23,372 nucleotides of DNA, from the IMG/VR virus record IMGVR_UViG_3300027896_000228, positions 1 to 23,372 of that record. The stretch is one strand, 5' to 3'. Source of the DNA: a virus. Shown piece after piece: positions 1,666 through 10,138 of the stretch. The notes beneath the pieces are model-generated. The model ran no database searches, had not been told where the DNA came from, and saw only the letters and a list, made by a program, of their open reading frames with translations. A program made the position numbers and the translations under genes. The stretch's first letter is position 1. Every line of letters begins with the position of its first letter.

Positions 1666-2915
1666 AGATAGTCCTTAGCGACAGTTTCGAGCCTTTGCTC
1701 GAGTGCAAGTCCCGATATCTTGTGCTCTGTGGGGGGCGAGGCTCGGGCAAGTCCGAGTTCGCCGCTAGGAAGGTCTTCTATCGTTGTATGACAGAGGGTC
1801 GGCATCGCTTCCTCGTGATGCGCAAGGTCCGGGTCACGCTAGCGGACAGCGTCATCCTGGTCATGCGTAGAGTTCTTGCGGAGAACAATGTCATCCATGA
1901 CTACAATAAGAGCGATAGGAAGATAACCTTCGCCGGCCCGAAGGGGATGAGTGAAATAGTCTTCGAGGGCCTAGACGACCCAGAGAAGATTAAGAGTATC
2001 GCAGGCATAACTTCCATATGGATTGAGGAGGCCACGGAGTTCTCGAAGGAAGACTTCTTAAAACTCGACCTTTGCCTCCGAGAGCCTGGGCCTTCATACC
2101 ACCAGATAATGCTATCGTTCAATCCTCAAGAGGCGGAGGCCAGGTGGCTCAAGGACCGTTTCTTCGGGGCCGAGCCCTATCCAGATTCGACCGTTCATCG
2201 TTCTACCATAGACGACAATCCGCTGAAGGTACTCCAGCCATCGACATGGCAGGCTTATTGCGGAACTCTGGATGCACTAAGAGGCCAGGACGAAGCACTA
2301 TGGAAGATATCGCGGCTAGGGGAATGGGCATCGCGCTCGGGTCAGATTTACAACTGGGACGTTCAGACGTTGCCTCCTCCTGTCAAGGTCAAGAATGAGA
2401 AAGGCGAAGAGATTGAGGTCCTCCCATTCGACGAGATTTGGTGCGGAGGCGACTTCGGATATTCCGTGGACGAGGCGGCCGTTGCTCGCATCTATCGCAA
2501 GGCCGATGAGTTCTGGGTCCAGGAAGTCCTATATCAGAAGGACTTAACGAACCAAGAACTCGGGGCGGAGATGAAGGCCAGGGGGATTAACGGCGAGGCC
2601 GTATACTTCGATTCCGCAGAGCCTAAGTCCATCGCAGAGCTGAAGAAGCTAGGATTGAACATCCGGCCGGCCGACAAGGGGCCAGACAGCGTCCGGGCGG
2701 GTATCGATTTCATCAAGGGCAAGAAGGTCCACATAGTCCAGGGCTCTAGCAATATCCTGAAAGAGATGAACAGCTATTGTTGGCGGAAGGACAAGTCAGG
2801 AGAGAGCCTTCCAGAGCCTGTCGCGGCGTTCAACCACTTGATGGACGCGATTCGCTATGGGATAGCGACACATTGCATGCGTCCTCCATGTTCTATTGGA
2901 TACGAGGCTAACTAA
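1662..2915 (+). CDS. terL: Terminase large subunit (ATPase and nuclease)
   Basis: This 417-residue protein is the DNA-packaging motor and headful/end-cutting nuclease. The N-terminal ATPase shows Walker A GGRGSGKS (residues 24-31) and Walker B IWIEEATEF (about 119-127, with Glu122/Glu123 as acidic residues). The C-terminal RNase H-like nuclease shows GGDFGYSVDEAAV (Asp264), VYFDSAEP (Asp317) and NHLMDAIRYG (Asp395), the usual metal-binding acidic triad. Length and motif spacing fit the PBSX/Terminase_3/6 type. The start is ATG 1662, overlapping the TGA of the membrane protein gene. It ends in TAA at 2913-2915, one base before the portal start, so packaging and portal are one translational unit. 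Confidence 0.96.
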   Translation: MKIVLSDSFEPLLECKSRYLVLCGGRGSGKSEFAARKVFYRCMTEGRHRFLVMRKVRVTLADSVILVMRRVLAENNVIHDYNKSDRKITFAGPKGMSEIVFEGLDDPEKIKSIAGITSIWIEEATEFSKEDFLKLDLCLREPGPSYHQIMLSFNPQEAEARWLKDRFFGAEPYPDSTVHRSTIDDNPLKVLQPSTWQAYCGTLDALRGQDEALWKISRLGEWASRSGQIYNWDVQTLPPPVKVKNEKGEEIEVLPFDEIWCGGDFGYSVDEAAVARIYRKADEFWVQEVLYQKDLTNQELGAEMKARGINGEAVYFDSAEPKSIAELKKLGLNIRPADKGPDSVRAGIDFIKGKKVHIVQGSSNILKEMNSYCWRKDKSGESLPEPVAAFNHLMDAIRYGIATHCMRPPCSIGYEAN

Positions 2916-2916
2916 G

Positions 2917-5091
2917 ATGGGAATCATCGACCGTTACCTAGAGCGCAGGGGATTCGTGAGGGCGGAGCCGGATTACAAGAGCAAAGCGGCCGGCTTCATG
3001 GACTTGGAGACCAGCACCTATCCAGACGGCCGGCCGGACGCGGAGAAAATCTATGACTATCCGCAATTCATCCAGGCCTACCGTTCTCTGCCATGGCTCT
3101 ATGCGGCGGCTACGGCGCTAGCGATTGCTTGCGTCAAGCCTGAGTTGAAGGTCTATCGCGAGGTCAAGGACAAGAACGGCGTCCACCAGGAAGAGGTCGA
3201 AGGCGAGGACATTAATCGGCTAATCGAACTACCGAACGCGCAGACCAGCTATCACGAACTCTTGCAAATCACAGTCGTCAACCTGTGGCTGATGGGCAAC
3301 CACTACTGGAACCTCGTCGGCACTCAGGAGAAGGCGAAGATTACGAAGGCTAATCCCCCGGTGGAGATTTGGTGGGTCAAGCCTGAGCAGGTATTCCCGA
3401 AAGCTGACAGGAATGGCTTAATCTACGGATACGAGTTCCAAGGGGCCTCGGGCCAGAAGCGGCTCCTGGACCCCTCGGAGATTGTCCACTTCAAGAAGGC
3501 TAATCCAGCTTCATACTTCCTGGGGATGGGAGTGATGGAGCCTTTGACTAACACAGCGGTCCTCGAGCTGAATGCTTCGACTTTCATGCGGCGCTACATG
3601 GAGAACGACGCTACTCCGCCGTATATCTTCGAGCATCCGGGCGACCCGACGCAGGAACAGAGGAAAGCGTTCTGGACGGCCTGGGACGAGCGCCACAAGG
3701 GGCCACGTCGGGCCGGCCGCGCCGGCATGGTCTGGGGTGGCATGAAGGTCACGAAGATAGGGGAGACTGTCAAGGATGCGCAATACAATGAACTCCGAAA
3801 GCAGAACCGCGAAGAGATTCTTGCGGCTATGGGAGTTCCGCCGTCGGTAGTCGGACTTCTCGAATACGCTAACTACTCCAACATGGAGGTCCAGCAGAAG
3901 AAGTTCTGGGAGGACGCCGTGATGCCGTGCCTCTCGCTCATCGCCGACAAAATGACCCTTAGGCTGGCTCCGCTATTCGATGAGCAGTACTGGTTTGAAT
4001 ACGATTACTCGAACATCCGCGCTTTGCAAGAGGACGAGGAGCATCGCGCTCGAGTGGCTGATTATCTCATAGGTTGCGGCGTGAAGACTCCTAACCAGGT
4101 CCGCCAGGAGATGTTCAACGAAGACCCTTATCCTGGGGGAGACCAGTATTTTATGAAGATGACTTACACGCCCATCGGAGTTGACCCGAATGGGATTACA
4201 GAGGAGGTCCCGGCCGGAGCCGCAAGCGCGGCGGCTGGCAAGGCTGTGGTAGCCAAGGATGGCGAAGAGGCCCCTAAAGAGGGCGGCTCATTCTGGACTC
4301 AGCGTGAGCGGAAAGAGGCGCTTTGGACGAACTGCGAGAAACGGCTCTCCGCTTCCACTCGCGCCTTCCAACCAAAGGTCGAAGGCTACCTAAGGGACCA
4401 GGCTAAGATGGTTAAGGAGAGGATTGCCTCAGCTAAGACGCCGGCGCATCTTCGGGCGGCCGATGTGTTCGACGTCAACGCTGAAGTGAAGAGGTTCAAG
4501 GCATTTGAATCTTTCTACAAGTCAGTGTTTGAGCGGGCGGGCGAGGCCGGCTACCATGCCACCAAAGGCAAGCTCTGGATTCCGCCCGAGGAGCGTCGCA
4601 TCAAGGACGAGGACACGTTCAACCCTACAGCAGAGCACTGGGCTAAGCTGAGTGCCCAAATCGATAAGTCGGCGCGTTTCTTCAACGAATCGACATGGGA
4701 TGTAGTCAAGCAGGGCCTCGAAACGGGCCTTGCAGAGAACATGACTACCGAAGAGATAGCGCAGACTATATGGCAGAGCCTTTCAGACAGGGCGGCTTGG
4801 GAGGCGCGTCGCATCGCCTCCACTGAGATGACGCGGACAGAGGGCTGGGGTCAGGTGGAAGGCTACAAGCAAAACGACCAAATCGAGATGAAAGGCTGGC
4901 TCTGCTCGATGCTTCCCACCTCGCGCGACGACCATATTGCCGCAGACGGGGAGGAAGTAGGACTGGATGAGGACTTCATCGTCCCTCCGAATGGGGGGTA
5001 CGCTATGGAATACCCTGGAGATGAGCGAGCGCCGGCCGAGGAGGTCTGCAACTGCCGGTGCTCTACATATCCAGTGGTCGGTTCTCTCTAA
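2917..5091 (+). CDS. Portal protein fused to MuF-like head morphogenesis domain
   Basis: This is a 724-residue protein. Residues about 1-430 are a HK97/lambda-family portal, the dodecameric ring through which DNA is pumped: N-terminal YPQFIQAYRSLPWLYAAATALA, then GNHYWNLVG, and the EILAAMGVPPSVVGL signature of this family. A charged linker follows (about 430-480). The C-terminal part (about residues 590-724) has the Mu gpF/SPP1 gp7-type pattern: ARRIASTEMTRT, then SRDDHIAADGEEV, then APAEEVCNCRC. MuF proteins are minor head proteins, normally encoded by a separate gene just after the portal gene. Start ATG 2917 is chosen over a TTG at 2896 inside terL because GAGG at 2904-2907 is well spaced. 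No separate MuF gene exists here, so the fusion probably serves both roles. Confidence 0.93.
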   Translation: MGIIDRYLERRGFVRAEPDYKSKAAGFMDLETSTYPDGRPDAEKIYDYPQFIQAYRSLPWLYAAATALAIACVKPELKVYREVKDKNGVHQEEVEGEDINRLIELPNAQTSYHELLQITVVNLWLMGNHYWNLVGTQEKAKITKANPPVEIWWVKPEQVFPKADRNGLIYGYEFQGASGQKRLLDPSEIVHFKKANPASYFLGMGVMEPLTNTAVLELNASTFMRRYMENDATPPYIFEHPGDPTQEQRKAFWTAWDERHKGPRRAGRAGMVWGGMKVTKIGETVKDAQYNELRKQNREEILAAMGVPPSVVGLLEYANYSNMEVQQKKFWEDAVMPCLSLIADKMTLRLAPLFDEQYWFEYDYSNIRALQEDEEHRARVADYLIGCGVKTPNQVRQEMFNEDPYPGGDQYFMKMTYTPIGVDPNGITEEVPAGAASAAAGKAVVAKDGEEAPKEGGSFWTQRERKEALWTNCEKRLSASTRAFQPKVEGYLRDQAKMVKERIASAKTPAHLRAADVFDVNAEVKRFKAFESFYKSVFERAGEAGYHATKGKLWIPPEERRIKDEDTFNPTAEHWAKLSAQIDKSARFFNESTWDVVKQGLETGLAENMTTEEIAQTIWQSLSDRAAWEARRIASTEMTRTEGWGQVEGYKQNDQIEMKGWLCSMLPTSRDDHIAADGEEVGLDEDFIVPPNGGYAMEYPGDERAPAEEVCNCRCSTYPVVGSL

Positions 5092-5102
5092 GGAGGAACA
5101 CC

Positions 5103-7478
5103 ATGGAACAGAGAGTTATCAAAGCGAATGAGATGCTCTTCCGCCGCCTCGCGCCGGAGGACGTTGTCATCCGCTCTATCGATGAGAAGACGAGGACCAT
5201 CTGGCACCCCGTCACGCGCGAGGTCAACGACAGGATGGGCGATATCGTCAGACTGGGAGGGGCGAACCTCGAAGAGTTCAAGAAAAAGCCTGGAGTGCTC
5301 TACGGGCACGACTATCGCTCCATGAATCCCATCCCTGTCATCGCCGAGAACGTCGGTTTCCAGGTCGAGGGCGACCGGCTAATAGCCGGGACACGCTTCC
5401 TCGACACCGGCACGCCGGGAATGAGCCAGCCTCTGAAGGACCTGGTCAATGACAACTGGATTCTCCAGAGTCAGAAACTCCTCGGCTGGAGCATCGGCTT
5501 CATGCCAACGAAGTGGGAGGCCATCAAGAACACAGATGGCCAGGTCACCGGCTTCGACTTTCAGGAGTGGAAGCTCTACGAATACAGCTCGGTCATCATC
5601 CCGGCGCACCAGGACGCCGTCAACGATGCCATCAAGGGCGGCCAGATTACTGGCGCGGTCAAGAAATACTTCGATATGTTGCCTGCCATCAAGTCCGAGC
5701 CGGAGCCCGAGGCTAAGGGTGTCATCCCCTATGCCAGTCACGGCACAGCGCCGGAGGGCGAGGCGTGGGACGCTGGCGCAGAGGTCGGGAAGGCCGACGT
5801 CAACCAGCTGAAGAAGATGTGCGCCTGGTTCGACTCGGCAAACCCCGATGTCAAGGGCTCCTACAAGCTCCCCCACCACAAGGCCGGCGACCTCAAGGCC
5901 GTGTGGCGCGGCGTAGCGGCCGCGATGGGCGCTCTGCTCGGGGCTAGGGGTGGCGTGAATATCCCTGACGCAGACCGCAAGGGTGTTTACAACCATCTCT
6001 CGAAGCATTACGACGAGTTCTCTAAGACTCCGCCCGAGTTCAAGGAATACGAGGACGAGGGCGAAGAGTTCATCGAACCTGAACCCCAGGTCGCGGCTCC
6101 CGGAGCCGTAGAGGATATACCAAAAGAAGAACCAAAATCTCAAGGAGGAAACAAAGTGCTTGACAAAATCTTTGACAAGCTCAACAAGGGCGAACCTCTC
6201 ACGTCCGATGAGAAGGAAGTCCTCGCCAAGTTCCGGCTGGCGCTGATGCCGGAAAAGGCCGCCGAGCCCATCCGCAAGCTCGAACTCACCGACGAGCCGC
6301 GCCGGGCCGATGTGCGCCCCATCTCCAAGTTCTACGGTGAGCAGAGGGGCGACCTCTTTGTCCCGCCCGACGACCCCAAGACCTACACGAGCGCCGAGAA
6401 GGAGCTCGTGGACTTCCTGGACAAAGCCTACATAGTCGGAGAGATTCTCCACAAGCCGGCTTCCCAGCTCAAGATGTGGACGAACTTCTTCGACCGCAAC
6501 AGCTCGTTGAAGAAGGCCCTGGCCGAAGCCACGTCCTCGGGCGGCGCGGAGTGGGTGCCGACCCTGCTATCGGCTAATCTCTACCAGCTCTTCTTCCTGA
6601 ATGCCATCGTGGCCTCGCTGTTCCAGGAAATCCCGATGCCGGGCAACCCCTATACCCTGCCCTACAGCTTCGACACAGATGCGGCCGACGGCTTCTACTA
6701 CGTGGCTGAGTCCACGTCGGACGAGCCGGGCAAGTCTCCGACCTCCAACGTCACGACCGGCAAGCTGACCCTCACGGCCCGCAAGCTGAAGAGGCGCATC
6801 CTCTTCTCCGAAGAGCTCCAGGAAGACAGTATCGTCCCGGTCATCTCGGTCCTGCAGAACCAAATCGTGATGGCGGCCGCACGTGCAATCGACAACGCCG
6901 TCATCAACGGCGACACCACGGCCACTCACCAGGACTCGAACGTCACCGACCCGAGGGATGTCCAGAAGGCGTGGATTGGCCTGCGCAAGTCCTGCCAGGC
7001 CGGCCAGAAGGTCGACTGCTCGACCTTCAACACGTCGAACCTCATGTCCATCCGCACGGCCATGTCCAAGTGGGGCATGGACCCGAGCCAACTGGCCTGG
7101 ATTCCCGGCCCGAAGACCTACAACAAGATGCTGGGCCTCACGGAAGTGTTGACGGTCGACAAGTTCGGCCCGAGCGCCGTCATCATCAAGGGCGAGCTCG
7201 CGGCCCTGCTCGGAGTGCCCATCGTCCCCTCCGAAAAGGTCAAGGAGAACCTAAACGCCTCCGGCGTCTACGACGGCACGACCACGACCAAGACCATCGG
7301 CCTCATCGTCAACAGGCTCGGCTTCATCGTGGGCACCAGGGGCACGGCGCGGGTGCGCATGGAAGAGGAAGGGGCCACGGACATCAACCAGCTCACCGTG
7401 AGCTTCCGCAAGGCGTTCACGGCGGTTTACGACACCAGCTCGTACCCGACCGTCGGACTGGCCTACAACATCAGCTAA
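5103..7478 (+). CDS. Prohead protease - accessory domain - major capsid protein fusion
   Basis: This is a single uninterrupted 791-codon frame from ATG 5103 (AAGGAGG at 5090-5096). An upstream ATG at 5058 inside the portal gene lacks a good RBS. Residues about 1-200 are a HK97-type prohead protease (S78/U35 family) with the catalytic His in LYGHDY (His69) and Ser in LGWSIGF (Ser130). Residues about 210-315 hold an accessory domain with KLPHHKAG and VWRGVAAAMGALLGARGG, seen in other phage proteases, role unknown to me. An acidic linker follows, then from residue 352 the capsid protein. In HK97 the protease and capsid genes are separate; here they share a frame. Full-length product may be minor, because a strong internal start (6156) lies at the capsid boundary. 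Confidence 0.9.
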   Translation: MEQRVIKANEMLFRRLAPEDVVIRSIDEKTRTIWHPVTREVNDRMGDIVRLGGANLEEFKKKPGVLYGHDYRSMNPIPVIAENVGFQVEGDRLIAGTRFLDTGTPGMSQPLKDLVNDNWILQSQKLLGWSIGFMPTKWEAIKNTDGQVTGFDFQEWKLYEYSSVIIPAHQDAVNDAIKGGQITGAVKKYFDMLPAIKSEPEPEAKGVIPYASHGTAPEGEAWDAGAEVGKADVNQLKKMCAWFDSANPDVKGSYKLPHHKAGDLKAVWRGVAAAMGALLGARGGVNIPDADRKGVYNHLSKHYDEFSKTPPEFKEYEDEGEEFIEPEPQVAAPGAVEDIPKEEPKSQGGNKVLDKIFDKLNKGEPLTSDEKEVLAKFRLALMPEKAAEPIRKLELTDEPRRADVRPISKFYGEQRGDLFVPPDDPKTYTSAEKELVDFLDKAYIVGEILHKPASQLKMWTNFFDRNSSLKKALAEATSSGGAEWVPTLLSANLYQLFFLNAIVASLFQEIPMPGNPYTLPYSFDTDAADGFYYVAESTSDEPGKSPTSNVTTGKLTLTARKLKRRILFSEELQEDSIVPVISVLQNQIVMAAARAIDNAVINGDTTATHQDSNVTDPRDVQKAWIGLRKSCQAGQKVDCSTFNTSNLMSIRTAMSKWGMDPSQLAWIPGPKTYNKMLGLTEVLTVDKFGPSAVIIKGELAALLGVPIVPSEKVKENLNASGVYDGTTTTKTIGLIVNRLGFIVGTRGTARVRMEEEGATDINQLTVSFRKAFTAVYDTSSYPTVGLAYNIS
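6142..6158 (+). promoter_or_regulatory. Internal ribosome binding site and GTG start for free capsid protein
   Basis: AAGGAGG at 6142-6148 is followed after 7 nt by GTG 6156, in frame. The surrounding bases (about 6115-6155) are much richer in A than the flanking GC-ending codons, which would keep the site single-stranded. In the protease frame the site encodes a Gly-Gly within a linker, so it can be kept without harming a folded domain. Confidence 0.8.
6156..7478 (+). CDS. Major capsid protein (HK97 fold), internal start
   Basis: This is a 440-residue product from GTG 6156, in frame with the protease fusion. The support is an AAGGAGG at 6142-6148 with 7 nt spacing inside a locally A-rich stretch of an otherwise GC-rich gene. 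The N-terminal about 100 residues are charged and helical (LDKIFDKLNKGEPLTSDEKE), like the delta/scaffold region that the HK97 protease removes. The rest follows HK97-fold capsid features: GAEWVPTLLSANLYQ, then FQEIPMPGNPYTLPY, then KLKRRILFSEEL of the spine-helix region, DNAVINGD, and a C-terminal FIVGTRGTARVRMEEEGATD. It forms the icosahedral shell. The strong start right at the domain boundary implies most capsid protein is made this way, without the protease part. Confidence 0.9.
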   Translation: MLDKIFDKLNKGEPLTSDEKEVLAKFRLALMPEKAAEPIRKLELTDEPRRADVRPISKFYGEQRGDLFVPPDDPKTYTSAEKELVDFLDKAYIVGEILHKPASQLKMWTNFFDRNSSLKKALAEATSSGGAEWVPTLLSANLYQLFFLNAIVASLFQEIPMPGNPYTLPYSFDTDAADGFYYVAESTSDEPGKSPTSNVTTGKLTLTARKLKRRILFSEELQEDSIVPVISVLQNQIVMAAARAIDNAVINGDTTATHQDSNVTDPRDVQKAWIGLRKSCQAGQKVDCSTFNTSNLMSIRTAMSKWGMDPSQLAWIPGPKTYNKMLGLTEVLTVDKFGPSAVIIKGELAALLGVPIVPSEKVKENLNASGVYDGTTTTKTIGLIVNRLGFIVGTRGTARVRMEEEGATDINQLTVSFRKAFTAVYDTSSYPTVGLAYNIS

Positions 7479-7488
7479 GGAGGGCATC

Positions 7489-7884
7489 ATGGGCCTCACC
7501 TACGAAACCAGGTACGAAACGCAACTCATGGGCGACATGGCGGCCGATATGTCCACCTACAAGTGGGCACTCTTTCGGACGCTTCGTCAAATCAAGATCA
7601 TCGCCGTTCGATTCGGCGCGGCCAAAGCCGTGACCGCCGCCGACACCAATTACAGCACGTTCTCGCTCTCGGACGGCACCAACACCATCGCCTCGCTGGC
7701 CACGGGGCCGGCGGCCGGTGGCGACTCGATCGCTCAGGGCGCGTTCATCTCCAAGACCCCGGTGGCGGCTTATGCCGTCGTCGCGGCCGGGACGACGCTC
7801 CAGCTCGTCGGTGCGAAGACGGGCTCCGGCATGGCCATCTCGGGACTCATCGTCCAGATTGAGTTCGTGGAGTACGGCGTCTAA
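7489..7884 (+). CDS. Probable capsid accessory (decoration-like) protein
   Basis: This is a 131-residue protein directly after the capsid gene, with AAGGAGG 10 nt or less before ATG 7489. It begins with polar residues (GLTYETRYETQLMGDM), then a Ser/Thr/Ala/Gly-rich beta-type sequence (TAADTNYSTFSLSDGTNTIASL, then KTGSGMAISGLIVQIEFVEYGV). Its position, small size, GC-ending codons like the capsid gene, and the hairpins that follow it suggest an abundant head protein such as a decoration or cement protein. There is no diagnostic motif, so the assignment rests on synteny and composition. Confidence 0.7.
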   Translation: MGLTYETRYETQLMGDMAADMSTYKWALFRTLRQIKIIAVRFGAAKAVTAADTNYSTFSLSDGTNTIASLATGPAAGGDSIAQGAFISKTPVAAYAVVAAGTTLQLVGAKTGSGMAISGLIVQIEFVEYGV

Positions 7885-7895
7885 GGCATGTTTTG

Positions 7896-7915
7896 AACCG
7901 GGCTCTTGCTCGGTT
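7896..7915 (+). terminator. Stem-loop 1 after the capsid block
   Basis: AACCGGGC (7896-7903) pairs with GCTCGGTT (7908-7915) around a TCTT loop: 8 pairs including one G-T wobble. It lies 12 bases after the stop of the probable decoration gene. There is no T-run directly after it, so alone it would be a weak terminator; it may also protect the mRNA 3' end. Confidence 0.5.
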
Positions 7916-7923
7916 GACCGGGC

Positions 7924-7947
7924 GGGAGGGGGCTTCGGCCCCCTCCC
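7924..7947 (+). terminator. Strong GC-rich stem-loop 2 after the capsid block
   Basis: GGGAGGGGGC (7924-7933) and GCCCCCTCCC (7938-7947) form a perfect 10-bp stem closed by a TTCG tetraloop, an exceptionally stable hairpin. It lies in the 91-base gap between the decoration-like gene and the next gene. Only a short CTTT (about 7955-7958) follows, so it is either a partial or inefficient terminator or an RNA-stabilising structure. Either would lower expression of the neck and tail genes relative to capsid, or raise capsid mRNA stability. Confidence 0.65.
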
Positions 7948-7975
7948 TCCCGAACTTTACGCAAGGAGTTGAGTC

Positions 7976-8194
7976 ATGAGACTCCAGTTCTTCTCGACCC
8001 CATCGCTAGCCGAATACCACGGCTATCCCAGAGGGACGGCTGTCCACGCCAGGCCGGGCGACGAGGTTGAAGTCCCCGAGGAGGCCGGGAAGATTTTGCT
8101 CTCGGATTTTCCTTCCAACTTCTTTGCTGTCACGGGAGATTTGCAGGGCCCGCCAGTGGACAAGCAGATAAAGAGCGCCAAAGTGCGCAAGTAG
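7976..8194 (+). CDS. Small hypothetical protein in head-tail region
   Basis: This is a 72-residue protein with AAGGAG (7963-7968) 7 nt before ATG 7976. It has a short beta-like N-terminus (MRLQFFSTPS), the segment HARPGDEVEVPEEAGKILL, and a lysine-rich tail. The pattern 'GD.VEV..E.A..LL' is common in tiny proteins encoded between capsid and connector genes of siphoviruses; their function is generally not known. It is the first gene after the hairpins and is followed 9 nt later by the connector gene, so it belongs to the neck operon. Confidence 0.75.
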   Translation: MRLQFFSTPSLAEYHGYPRGTAVHARPGDEVEVPEEAGKILLSDFPSNFFAVTGDLQGPPVDKQIKSAKVRK

Positions 8195-8203
8195 GAGGCT
8201 CAG

Positions 8204-8788
8204 ATGGCTGTCGACGCAACAGTAGCTCTAGCGACGCTAGCTGAAGCAAAGGCGTTCATTAAGAAGACCGACGACAAGGACGTCTCTGTCCTCGAGGTGA
8301 TAATGAACGCTGTGGGGGATTTGTTCAACCAGCACACCGACCGCCACCTACTTGCGGCCACCTATACAGCCTTGTATCTCGACGGAAACGGAGAGCGCGA
8401 ACTTAGGCTCCCGAATTATCCCGTATCGACACTCACTTCAGTCTACGAAGACGAAGACCCTCTCACCGAGGGCATCGGCTATGACTTTATGGCCTATCTA
8501 GACACCGGCCGGCTCAGCAAGCCAGTCGGAGAGCGCTGGATGTGGGGTCCGAAGACTATCAAGGTCACCTACACGGCCGGCTATTCGCTTTCCAGCACTC
8601 CGCTTATTCCCAACGACCTCAAATTGGCCTATCTTATACAGGTCGGAGAGTTCTGGCAGAAGTTCTTGCACGCCAGCTGGGGCGAACTATCGCGCTCCCT
8701 CACCGGCCAGAGCGTTACAGTAACAGAGAAGGAAATCCTGCCTATCGTGAAGACGATGCTTTTGAAACACAGGAGGCTCGGGCTTTAA
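8204..8788 (+). CDS. Head-tail connector protein (gp6-like)
   Basis: This is a 194-residue protein; TAGGAGG precedes ATG 8204 with good spacing. The sequence has the features of HK97 gp6/SPP1 gp15-type connectors: an N-terminal helical part (TLAEAKAFIKKTDDKDVSVL, then VGDLFNQHTDRHLL), a central beta segment (LPNYPVSTLTSVYED), IKVTYTAGY and a C-terminal helical part (PNDLKLAYLIQVGEFWQK). The ring it forms joins portal to neck. It overlaps the next gene by TAATG. The position after capsid genes and before a gp10-like gene fits the standard order. Confidence 0.85.
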   Translation: MAVDATVALATLAEAKAFIKKTDDKDVSVLEVIMNAVGDLFNQHTDRHLLAATYTALYLDGNGERELRLPNYPVSTLTSVYEDEDPLTEGIGYDFMAYLDTGRLSKPVGERWMWGPKTIKVTYTAGYSLSSTPLIPNDLKLAYLIQVGEFWQKFLHASWGELSRSLTGQSVTVTEKEILPIVKTMLLKHRRLGL

Positions 8789-9429
8789 TGGACGAGTTCA
8801 AGATTACCGTCAAGTCCGACTACTCAGAGCAAAAGCTCAAAAGCGATACGCTCCGCAATATCCCTCGAGCGTTCAAGCGCAACGCTACGCAGTGGGCCTC
8901 GCGAACGGTGCTGTATATCAAGAATTACATCCGAGGGGGGAATGTCTTTAAGCAGGCCCCTAAGGAGATTATCCAGCGCCTAGGGATGAAGACCGATGTC
9001 CACGGACAGCAGGCCGAAATCGTACTGGGCACTGGCGGAGTTGTAGGCAAAGACCCCGTGGTATATGCCAGAATACAGGAAGAAGGCGGCTGGATAGTAC
9101 CTGCCAAGGCCAAGGCGCTAACGATTCCGCTTCCAGGGGTCACCGGCGCTGTAGCAAACTACGGCACGTTCGGGCCAGGAGGGACGCTATTTACGATAAG
9201 GTCGAAGGCTGGCAACGGATTAGTCTGCATGAAGACTGGGAAAAGCGGCTTTAAGCCACTATTCATCCTGTCGAAATCAGTCAAACTTCCGGCCCGCTAC
9301 TGGTTCACGAATCCGATTGCCCAGCAAATCCCCGATTTAGAACGGACAATGAGCCCTGAGGGGGTCTGGGCTACGGCGCAACAGCTGGCCTACGAGCGCA
9401 CGGCGGCGCAGGGAGGGATTGAAGGATGA
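8788..9429 (+). CDS. Neck/tail completion protein (HK97 gp10-like)
   Basis: This is a 213-residue protein. Start ATG 8788 overlaps the TAA of the connector gene and has AGGAGG at 8771-8776; an upstream in-frame ATG at 8542 lies deep in the connector gene and is not used. The N-terminal half is helical and basic (IPRAFKRNATQWASRTVLYIKNYI). The middle carries VVYARIQEEGGWIVPAKAKALTIP, the 'YA..Q..GG.I.P....L..P' pattern of HK97 gp10/Mu gpG-like tail completion proteins. It would close the head-proximal tail end or join the neck. It is longer than typical gp10 proteins, with an extra glycine-rich segment at about residues 115-150. Confidence 0.75.
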   Translation: MDEFKITVKSDYSEQKLKSDTLRNIPRAFKRNATQWASRTVLYIKNYIRGGNVFKQAPKEIIQRLGMKTDVHGQQAEIVLGTGGVVGKDPVVYARIQEEGGWIVPAKAKALTIPLPGVTGAVANYGTFGPGGTLFTIRSKAGNGLVCMKTGKSGFKPLFILSKSVKLPARYWFTNPIAQQIPDLERTMSPEGVWATAQQLAYERTAAQGGIEG

Positions 9430-9914
9430 CAACTACAATGCCTGCCGACCCTCTATCGCTCCAGGTCTTGAATCGCTGTGTTGACGTCCTGAAGTCAATC
9501 ACTCAAGGCTCAACCTACTTTTACACGGTAGGCGATAACGTCATGCTAGGCTTCCGGCATTACAAGGAAGTCCCGAGCTTTCCTTACGACATGGTATGCC
9601 TAGAGAAGGACGACCGGGACCCCGAACTCCTGCCTGACCAGTGGGTGAGGCGCTACCTTGTCGTGAGCATCAAGGCCTATGTCGATTACGAGGATAGCGA
9701 CCCTGTCAAGAAGTTGATTAAACACCTAGCAGATGTCCAGCTGGCCATTAACAACGATACGAAGAATCCCACCTCGGGCTCCCTGGGCAATCTCTGCGCT
9801 TATTGCCAAATCCAAGGCGTAGAGACGGACTCCGGGCTCCTGATGCTCGAGGGAGTTGCTTATTTTGACCTGAAAGTGCTCGCGGTCATCCACGGGCAGT
9901 TTGGGCAACTTTAA
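9426..9914 (+). CDS. Probable tail terminator protein
   Basis: This is a 162-residue protein, coupled to the previous gene by ATGA at 9426-9429. Short alpha/beta pattern: an N-terminal helix with VLNRCVDVLKSI, beta strands (YLVVSIKAYVDY), a helix (DPVKKLIKHLADVQLAIN) and C-terminal strands (MLEGVAYFDLKVLAVI). This order, and the position after a gp10-like and before the tail tube gene, match lambda gpU-type tail terminators, which cap the tube when it reaches tape-measure length. There is no catalytic motif. The role comes mainly from synteny and fold-like pattern. Confidence 0.7.
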   Translation: MTTTMPADPLSLQVLNRCVDVLKSITQGSTYFYTVGDNVMLGFRHYKEVPSFPYDMVCLEKDDRDPELLPDQWVRRYLVVSIKAYVDYEDSDPVKKLIKHLADVQLAINNDTKNPTSGSLGNLCAYCQIQGVETDSGLLMLEGVAYFDLKVLAVIHGQFGQL

Positions 9915-9925
9915 GGAGGCACGCT

Positions 9926-10138
9926 ATGGCGAGAGACAGATTCACATGGCTCGGCGCGGACACCTACACGCGCTCCTACGGGGCGGCCAACTCCGTCTTT
10001 CTCGAGAAGGGGAAGGATTACGACCTCGGCCCCATCCCTCCAGAGGTTGTGGACGAATGGGCCAAGTCCGGGCATGCCAAGTGGATAGGCGGCTCCAAGC
10101 CGAAGACTCCGGTTCCCGCGACGCCCGAGGAGGTCTAA
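9926..10138 (+). CDS. Small hypothetical protein
   Basis: This is a 70-residue protein after AAGGAGG with good spacing to ATG 9926. It has aromatic residues near the start (RFTWLGADTYTRSY), then KGKDYDLGPIPPEVVDEWAKSG, and a Pro/Lys-rich end (KPKTPVPATPEEV). It loosely recalls the small 'SG-A-W/I' proteins found near phage neck genes and the 72-residue protein at 7976. Its last codons contain GAGGAGGT, which is probably the ribosome site for the following gene. Function unknown. Confidence 0.7.
   Translation: MARDRFTWLGADTYTRSYGAANSVFLEKGKDYDLGPIPPEVVDEWAKSGHAKWIGGSKPKTPVPATPEEV

Follow-up and report, generated by a model that had tools for sequence, protein, structure and literature searches.

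How a prohead comes to hold a suitable, small number of protease molecules is a question for capsid assembly in general, and it is raised by a viral record 23,372 bases long (hereafter the window, i.e., the whole stretch of DNA analyzed) in which a prohead protease and a major capsid protein are encoded in one frame, with a Shine-Dalgarno (SD) sequence and a start codon inside it. We asked whether this frame gives rise to one protein or to two. Our reading, to which we assign a rough probability of 0.77, is that the locus holds two genes in one frame, one nested in the other, from which a 791-residue fusion and a free 440-residue subunit would be made, the fusion co-assembling with the free subunit and thereby placing the protease inside the shell.

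The fused frame and its domains

As a sequence-only reading of this DNA had claimed, the protease, an accessory domain and the capsid protein share one uninterrupted frame of 791 codons (Table 1), with profile matches for its protease and capsid parts. In a profile search with the whole protein, the protease part matched PF04586 with 23.1 bits (cut-off 21), and all 13 relatives matched the same profile at E <= 0.001; the window protein missed the equivalog cut-off of TIGR01543 (21.1 vs 59), and the protease alignment, used as a profile against solved structures, found no match. H69 and S130, which the same reading had assigned to an HK97-type protease, were both invariant in an alignment of 13 sequences, and we take them, from knowledge of the family, to be the catalytic His and Ser of S78 proteases. 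The capsid part scored 36.9 bits against PF05065 (cut-off 24.2) and 55.8 bits against TIGR01554 (cut-off 27.5), and its best match among solved structures was the 458-residue major head protein 8ho3 (E 2e-22). The structure model of the full-length protein was poor (mean pLDDT 42); the delta domain, of approx. 116 residues, had helices at residues 349-381 and 430-449 in this low-confidence model.

Table 1. Coordinates of the fused gene and of the features within it (positions in the window)
Feature	Position	Strand	Remarks
Fused protease / accessory domain / linker / delta domain / HK97-fold capsid gene	5103..7478	+	791 codons without a stop, ATG 5103 to TAA 7476-7478; same frame in L002
S78 (HK97-type) prohead protease domain	5175..5630	+	profile match; H69 and S130 invariant in relatives
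Accessory domain	5709..6047	+	absent from L003; also found in S78 proteases from many other phages
Acidic/proline linker	6048..6155	+	A-rich at 3' end; not alignable between relatives
Nested capsid gene	6156..7478	+	440 codons: delta-like domain 6156-6503, HK97-fold core 6504-7475
SD AAGGAGG for full-length product	5090..5096	+	6 nt 5' of ATG 5103; anti-SD pairing -12.0 kcal/mol
Internal SD AAGGAGG	6142..6148	+	7 nt 5' of GTG 6156; anti-SD pairing -11.4 kcal/mol
GTG start of nested capsid gene	6156..6158	+	homologous to true capsid starts in split relatives

An assembly error that removed a stop codon, which had been named as a possible objection to this frame, is ruled out as far as sequence goes, because the same open frame occurs in contig L002 and in further relatives. 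Over the 5581 bases that L002 shares with the window (positions 4558-10138), the two differ at a single base (99.98% identity). The same uninterrupted fusion also occurs in nine other non-redundant relatives (L003, L017, L018, L020, L021, L023, L025, L026 and L027; the contigs of L023 and L027 end within the capsid part). The fused gene is preceded by a large terminase gene and by a gene in which a portal protein is joined to a Mu-F-like minor head domain (window 2896-5091; PF04860 and PF04233) and is followed by head-tail and tail genes. Relatives were also sought in bacterial genomes; a first scan found none and a second found one distant MAG contig.

The accessory domain (approx. residues 203-315 of the 791-residue protein) had no match in Pfam or NCBIfam. 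While missing from L003, the closest relative of the window, it was also observed in the S78 protease ORFs of L004-L012, L033-L036, L038-L041, L052-L053 and L074. A further mosaic module, with the approximate pattern HACR ... HDGK.Y.I ... W(T)..EARSHC..HDG.FE, was seen by eye in some translations of protease ORFs (L005, L008, L011 and L017); in L017, it lies between the protease and capsid parts.

The internal start in the window and in its clade

Codon GTG 6156 opens a frame of 440 codons, and the AAGGAGG that the sequence-only reading had placed 7 nt ahead of it, at the capsid boundary, was confirmed. Its predicted anti-SD pairing exceeded in strength that at each of the 34 further in-frame start codons. 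The claim that the site lies in an A-rich pocket of a GC-ending gene also held; third-position GC around the internal site was 0.19, as compared to 0.84 for the gene as a whole, a value that places the site in the bottom 1.2% of 16-codon windows. The SD sequences ahead of ATG 5103 and GTG 6156 are about equal in strength.

We compared 10 non-redundant fused genes (the window and its nine relatives) with each other and with relatives from the same clade that have separate protease and capsid genes. In the alignment, the delta domain of all 10 fused genes begins with a start codon that is preceded by an SD sequence, with anti-SD pairing of -8.5 to -11.4 kcal/mol at these internal sites; only 3 of 306 other in-frame starts in these genes equaled the internal-site SD of their own gene. 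The sequence ahead of the nested start could not be aligned between relatives. Mean third-position GC across the ten genes was 0.55-0.84 farther upstream and only 0.30 over the eight codons that immediately precede the start; it then rose to 0.66 in the first eight codons past it, to 0.82 by codons 8-15 and to 0.80-0.94 beyond. This dip and recovery resembles the pattern at a real ribosome-binding site. Moreover, local RNA structure at the internal site was among the weakest tenth of the gene in 7 of the 10.

To assess the significance of the internal SD, amino acids were held fixed and codons were redrawn from the same gene. By this test, the SD alone was significant (P < 0.05) in only four of the ten genes; Fisher combination gave P = 5e-6, a value that overstates the evidence because the ten genes share ancestry. 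As the SD of a single gene is thus often not significant with amino acids fixed, the claim for a nested start rests on the comparison among genes and not on the window alone. The internal SD was stronger than the first SD in 7 of the 10 genes, the exceptions being the window, L021 and L027, and these exceptions mean that no general ratio of products can be read from the sequence.

The capsid genes of the split relatives (L022, L024, L028, L029, L030 and L042) start behind an SD, at the residue aligned to GTG 6156 or close to it. Overall, the conservation of SD and start codon across the fused genes makes dual products from one frame, through a second and internal start, a well supported prediction, and comparison with fused and split relatives gives strong support to the two products proposed in the sequence-only reading. 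Among the split relatives, L022 and L024 are nearest to the window on the tree, and in both the end of the protease gene and the beginning of the capsid gene share a few bases (L022 5837-5840; L024 6049-6056); a small change of frame therefore separates the split from the fused arrangement. In L042 (4914-6078), the protease domain is divided over two frames, which represents either a real frameshift or a sequencing error.

The nested start across a wider survey

The sequence-only reading had proposed a search of phage genomes for the same fusion with a conserved internal SD. This search was positive: an automatic survey yielded 84 non-redundant fused genes in two clades (10 and 74 genes), every one of which had an in-frame ATG or GTG at the homologous position. 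At the nested start, SD pairing was -5 kcal/mol or better in 77 genes and -7 kcal/mol or better in 52, and seven genes had a poor SD. Control windows of equal width contained a start codon in 61-68% of cases, pairing of <= -5 kcal/mol in 14-17% and pairing of <= -7 kcal/mol in 3-6%. For tight controls of five codons, the corresponding values were 24.5% with a start codon, 4.6% with a start codon and pairing of <= -5 kcal/mol, and 0.8% with a start codon and pairing of <= -7 kcal/mol. All seven nested starts that were not ATG were GTG, as compared to 33% GTG among the valine codons of these genes; as the survey itself looked for start codons, we count the GTG-only valine sites as supportive only.

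One possible explanation for these data is that only the full-length chain is made, that every capsid subunit carries a protease which is removed by self-cleavage, and that the SD-like stretch does no more than make ribosomes pause where two domains meet. In keeping with this explanation, the composite gene of Gifsy-2 is reportedly discussed as a single gene product. The same view has been taken of the composite gene of MD8 (PMC8508860). A pause, however, would need no correctly spaced start codon, yet a start was found at the homologous residue in every one of the 84 surveyed genes, and one protease per capsid subunit would have to be accommodated within the shell. We thus consider production of the full-length chain alone to be very improbable.

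The second clade includes Pseudomonas phages PAJU2 and IME307, Salmonella phage FSL SP-016, Rhizobium phage RHph_X2_26 and Escherichia phage JLK-2012, and in this PAJU2-like clade a nested ATG is located at the delta boundary. Moraxella phages Mcat3 and Mcat7, which are related to it, have separate genes with the capsid start at the same boundary. In a phylogeny of 59 capsid cores, about four changes between the fused and the split state were needed, at least three of them on well supported branches; seven fused genes form one clade, throughout which the nested site is kept.

This history bears on whether the internal SD and start could be left over from an ancestral separate capsid gene that lost its stop, such that only the fusion is now made and the site is without function. 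Such an origin would fit the corresponding position of the capsid starts in split relatives, and since the fused or split state changed several times, some fusions may be recent. Against this, the start was kept in 84 of 84 genes, both in the seven-member fused clade and in the long-diverged PAJU2-like clade, despite turnover of the linker; the drop in codon composition at the site is sharp; and the valine sites all use GTG. As a useless site would be expected to have decayed in some of the seven genes of the fused clade, we regard a functionless remnant as improbable.

Predicted products and known systems

We hypothesize that initiation at ATG 5103 would produce the protease-delta-capsid fusion, and that independent initiation at GTG 6156 would produce the free delta-capsid subunit, from which most of the prohead would be built. 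As both products share the delta and capsid parts, subunits armed with a protease could join the growing shell; the fusion would enter through its own capsid part, with the protease on the inner side. The protease would then cut near the junction of delta and capsid, and elsewhere, to leave mature capsid subunits and degraded protease-delta. We infer that both products are made, and likewise their ratio, their co-assembly and the order of cleavage. As the sequence-only reading had suggested, the fusion may plausibly be the scarcer of the two and, by co-assembling, carry the protease into the prohead. For the window, the scarcer product is not predicted, because the SD ahead of ATG 5103 matches or exceeds the internal SD in strength. 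The earlier interpretation as a whole is partly supported.

Both products could also be made with a different outcome, in which the protease is cut from the linker early and enters the prohead free, the fusion serving only to couple expression. The linker region (residues 190-349) is long, poorly conserved and of very low model confidence (pLDDT about 25-35), and split relatives do without a covalent fusion, both of which are consistent with early release. Conversely, repeated fusion with retention of the nested start suggests, if indirectly, that covalent attachment is useful, and we consider early release unlikely, though not strongly so.

The proposed co-assembly of the fusion with the free subunit has a parallel in lambda C/Nu3 and, by analogy, in herpesvirus UL26/UL26.5, where an in-frame gene is nested in a longer one and the protease is present on the long form and absent from the short one. 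Through a C-terminal part common to both forms, the protease would be directed to the prohead. The locus studied here would apply the C/Nu3 principle to the capsid protein: like C/Nu3, it has an in-frame internal start conserved among relatives (10/10 in the clade, 84/84 in the survey), whereas the shared part in lambda is a scaffold that leaves and the shared part here is the capsid protein, which stays; the short frame includes its delta domain. That the lambda protease and scaffold share one gene has been published (PMC8508860). The head genes of T5 and HK97 also combine a delta-type N-terminal domain with the HK97 fold; protease and capsid protein are encoded by separate genes in these phages, as in the T5-like phage Eos, and are fused in the window.

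Fusions of protease and capsid protein are themselves already known (i.e., Gifsy-2, MD8, PAJU2 and NCBIfam NF045541). Gifsy-2 is said to be the earlier case of a protease, scaffold and capsid protein in a single gene. The same arrangement has been published for MD8-like phages (PMC8508860), and the text of that paper contains neither "internal" nor "Shine-Dalgarno". The Gifsy-2 tripartite gene and MD8 gp5, like the window, hold a protease, a scaffold-like middle and an HK97-fold capsid protein in one frame, the delta part of the window probably having the scaffold-like role; their protease is ClpP-like (S14-type), whereas that of the window is S78. The Gifsy-2 region has 697 codons and a possible internal AGGAG, 9 nt ahead of an ATG at codon 221. 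In the PAJU2 record, ORF003 is named "prohead protease fused capsid protein", and NF045541 is a curated family of prohead protease/capsid fusions; the window protein fell below the cut-off of this family (18 bits vs 525) and matched in the protease part only. PAJU2-like fusions share domain order, S78 class and a nested start at the delta boundary with the window, but belong to a separate capsid clade, are shorter (about 640-670 residues) and, in those examined, are without the accessory domain.

The fused arrangement therefore has less novelty than the sequence-only reading implied. We found no description of a conserved nested start for the capsid protein itself in the open-licence literature; as only open-licence papers were covered, this absence speaks only weakly for novelty. 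The nested start is general in the surveyed genes and, within the literature covered, undescribed. A single gene that yields capsid subunits with and without a protease would be a simple and directly testable answer to protease dosing. If this answer is true, annotations as a single ORF ("capsid and scaffold", "head maturation protease") hide the real start of the capsid gene, which would matter for proteomics and structure work.

We lean, with some reserve, towards a broader rule by which protease-capsid fusions of tailed phages are generally nested, with a conserved internal ribosome-binding site yielding free capsid protein, the full-length product being a minority armed subunit and the protease being dosed by the ratio of start-site use. 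The rule may also apply to portal-protease fusions, with the start kept at the protease domain. An S78 protease was observed at the C-terminal end of long ORFs in L055, L059, L060 and L064-L069 (866-953 codons where the contig end does not cut them). No strong SD was found ahead of the protease domain in L061 or L062; L061 is related to the ORFs of portal-protease type, and its N-terminal part is a portal (PF04860). All nine of the long ORFs have an SD-like site and a start codon 23-28 residues 5' of the protease domain, which suggests a nested protease gene in portal-protease fusions.
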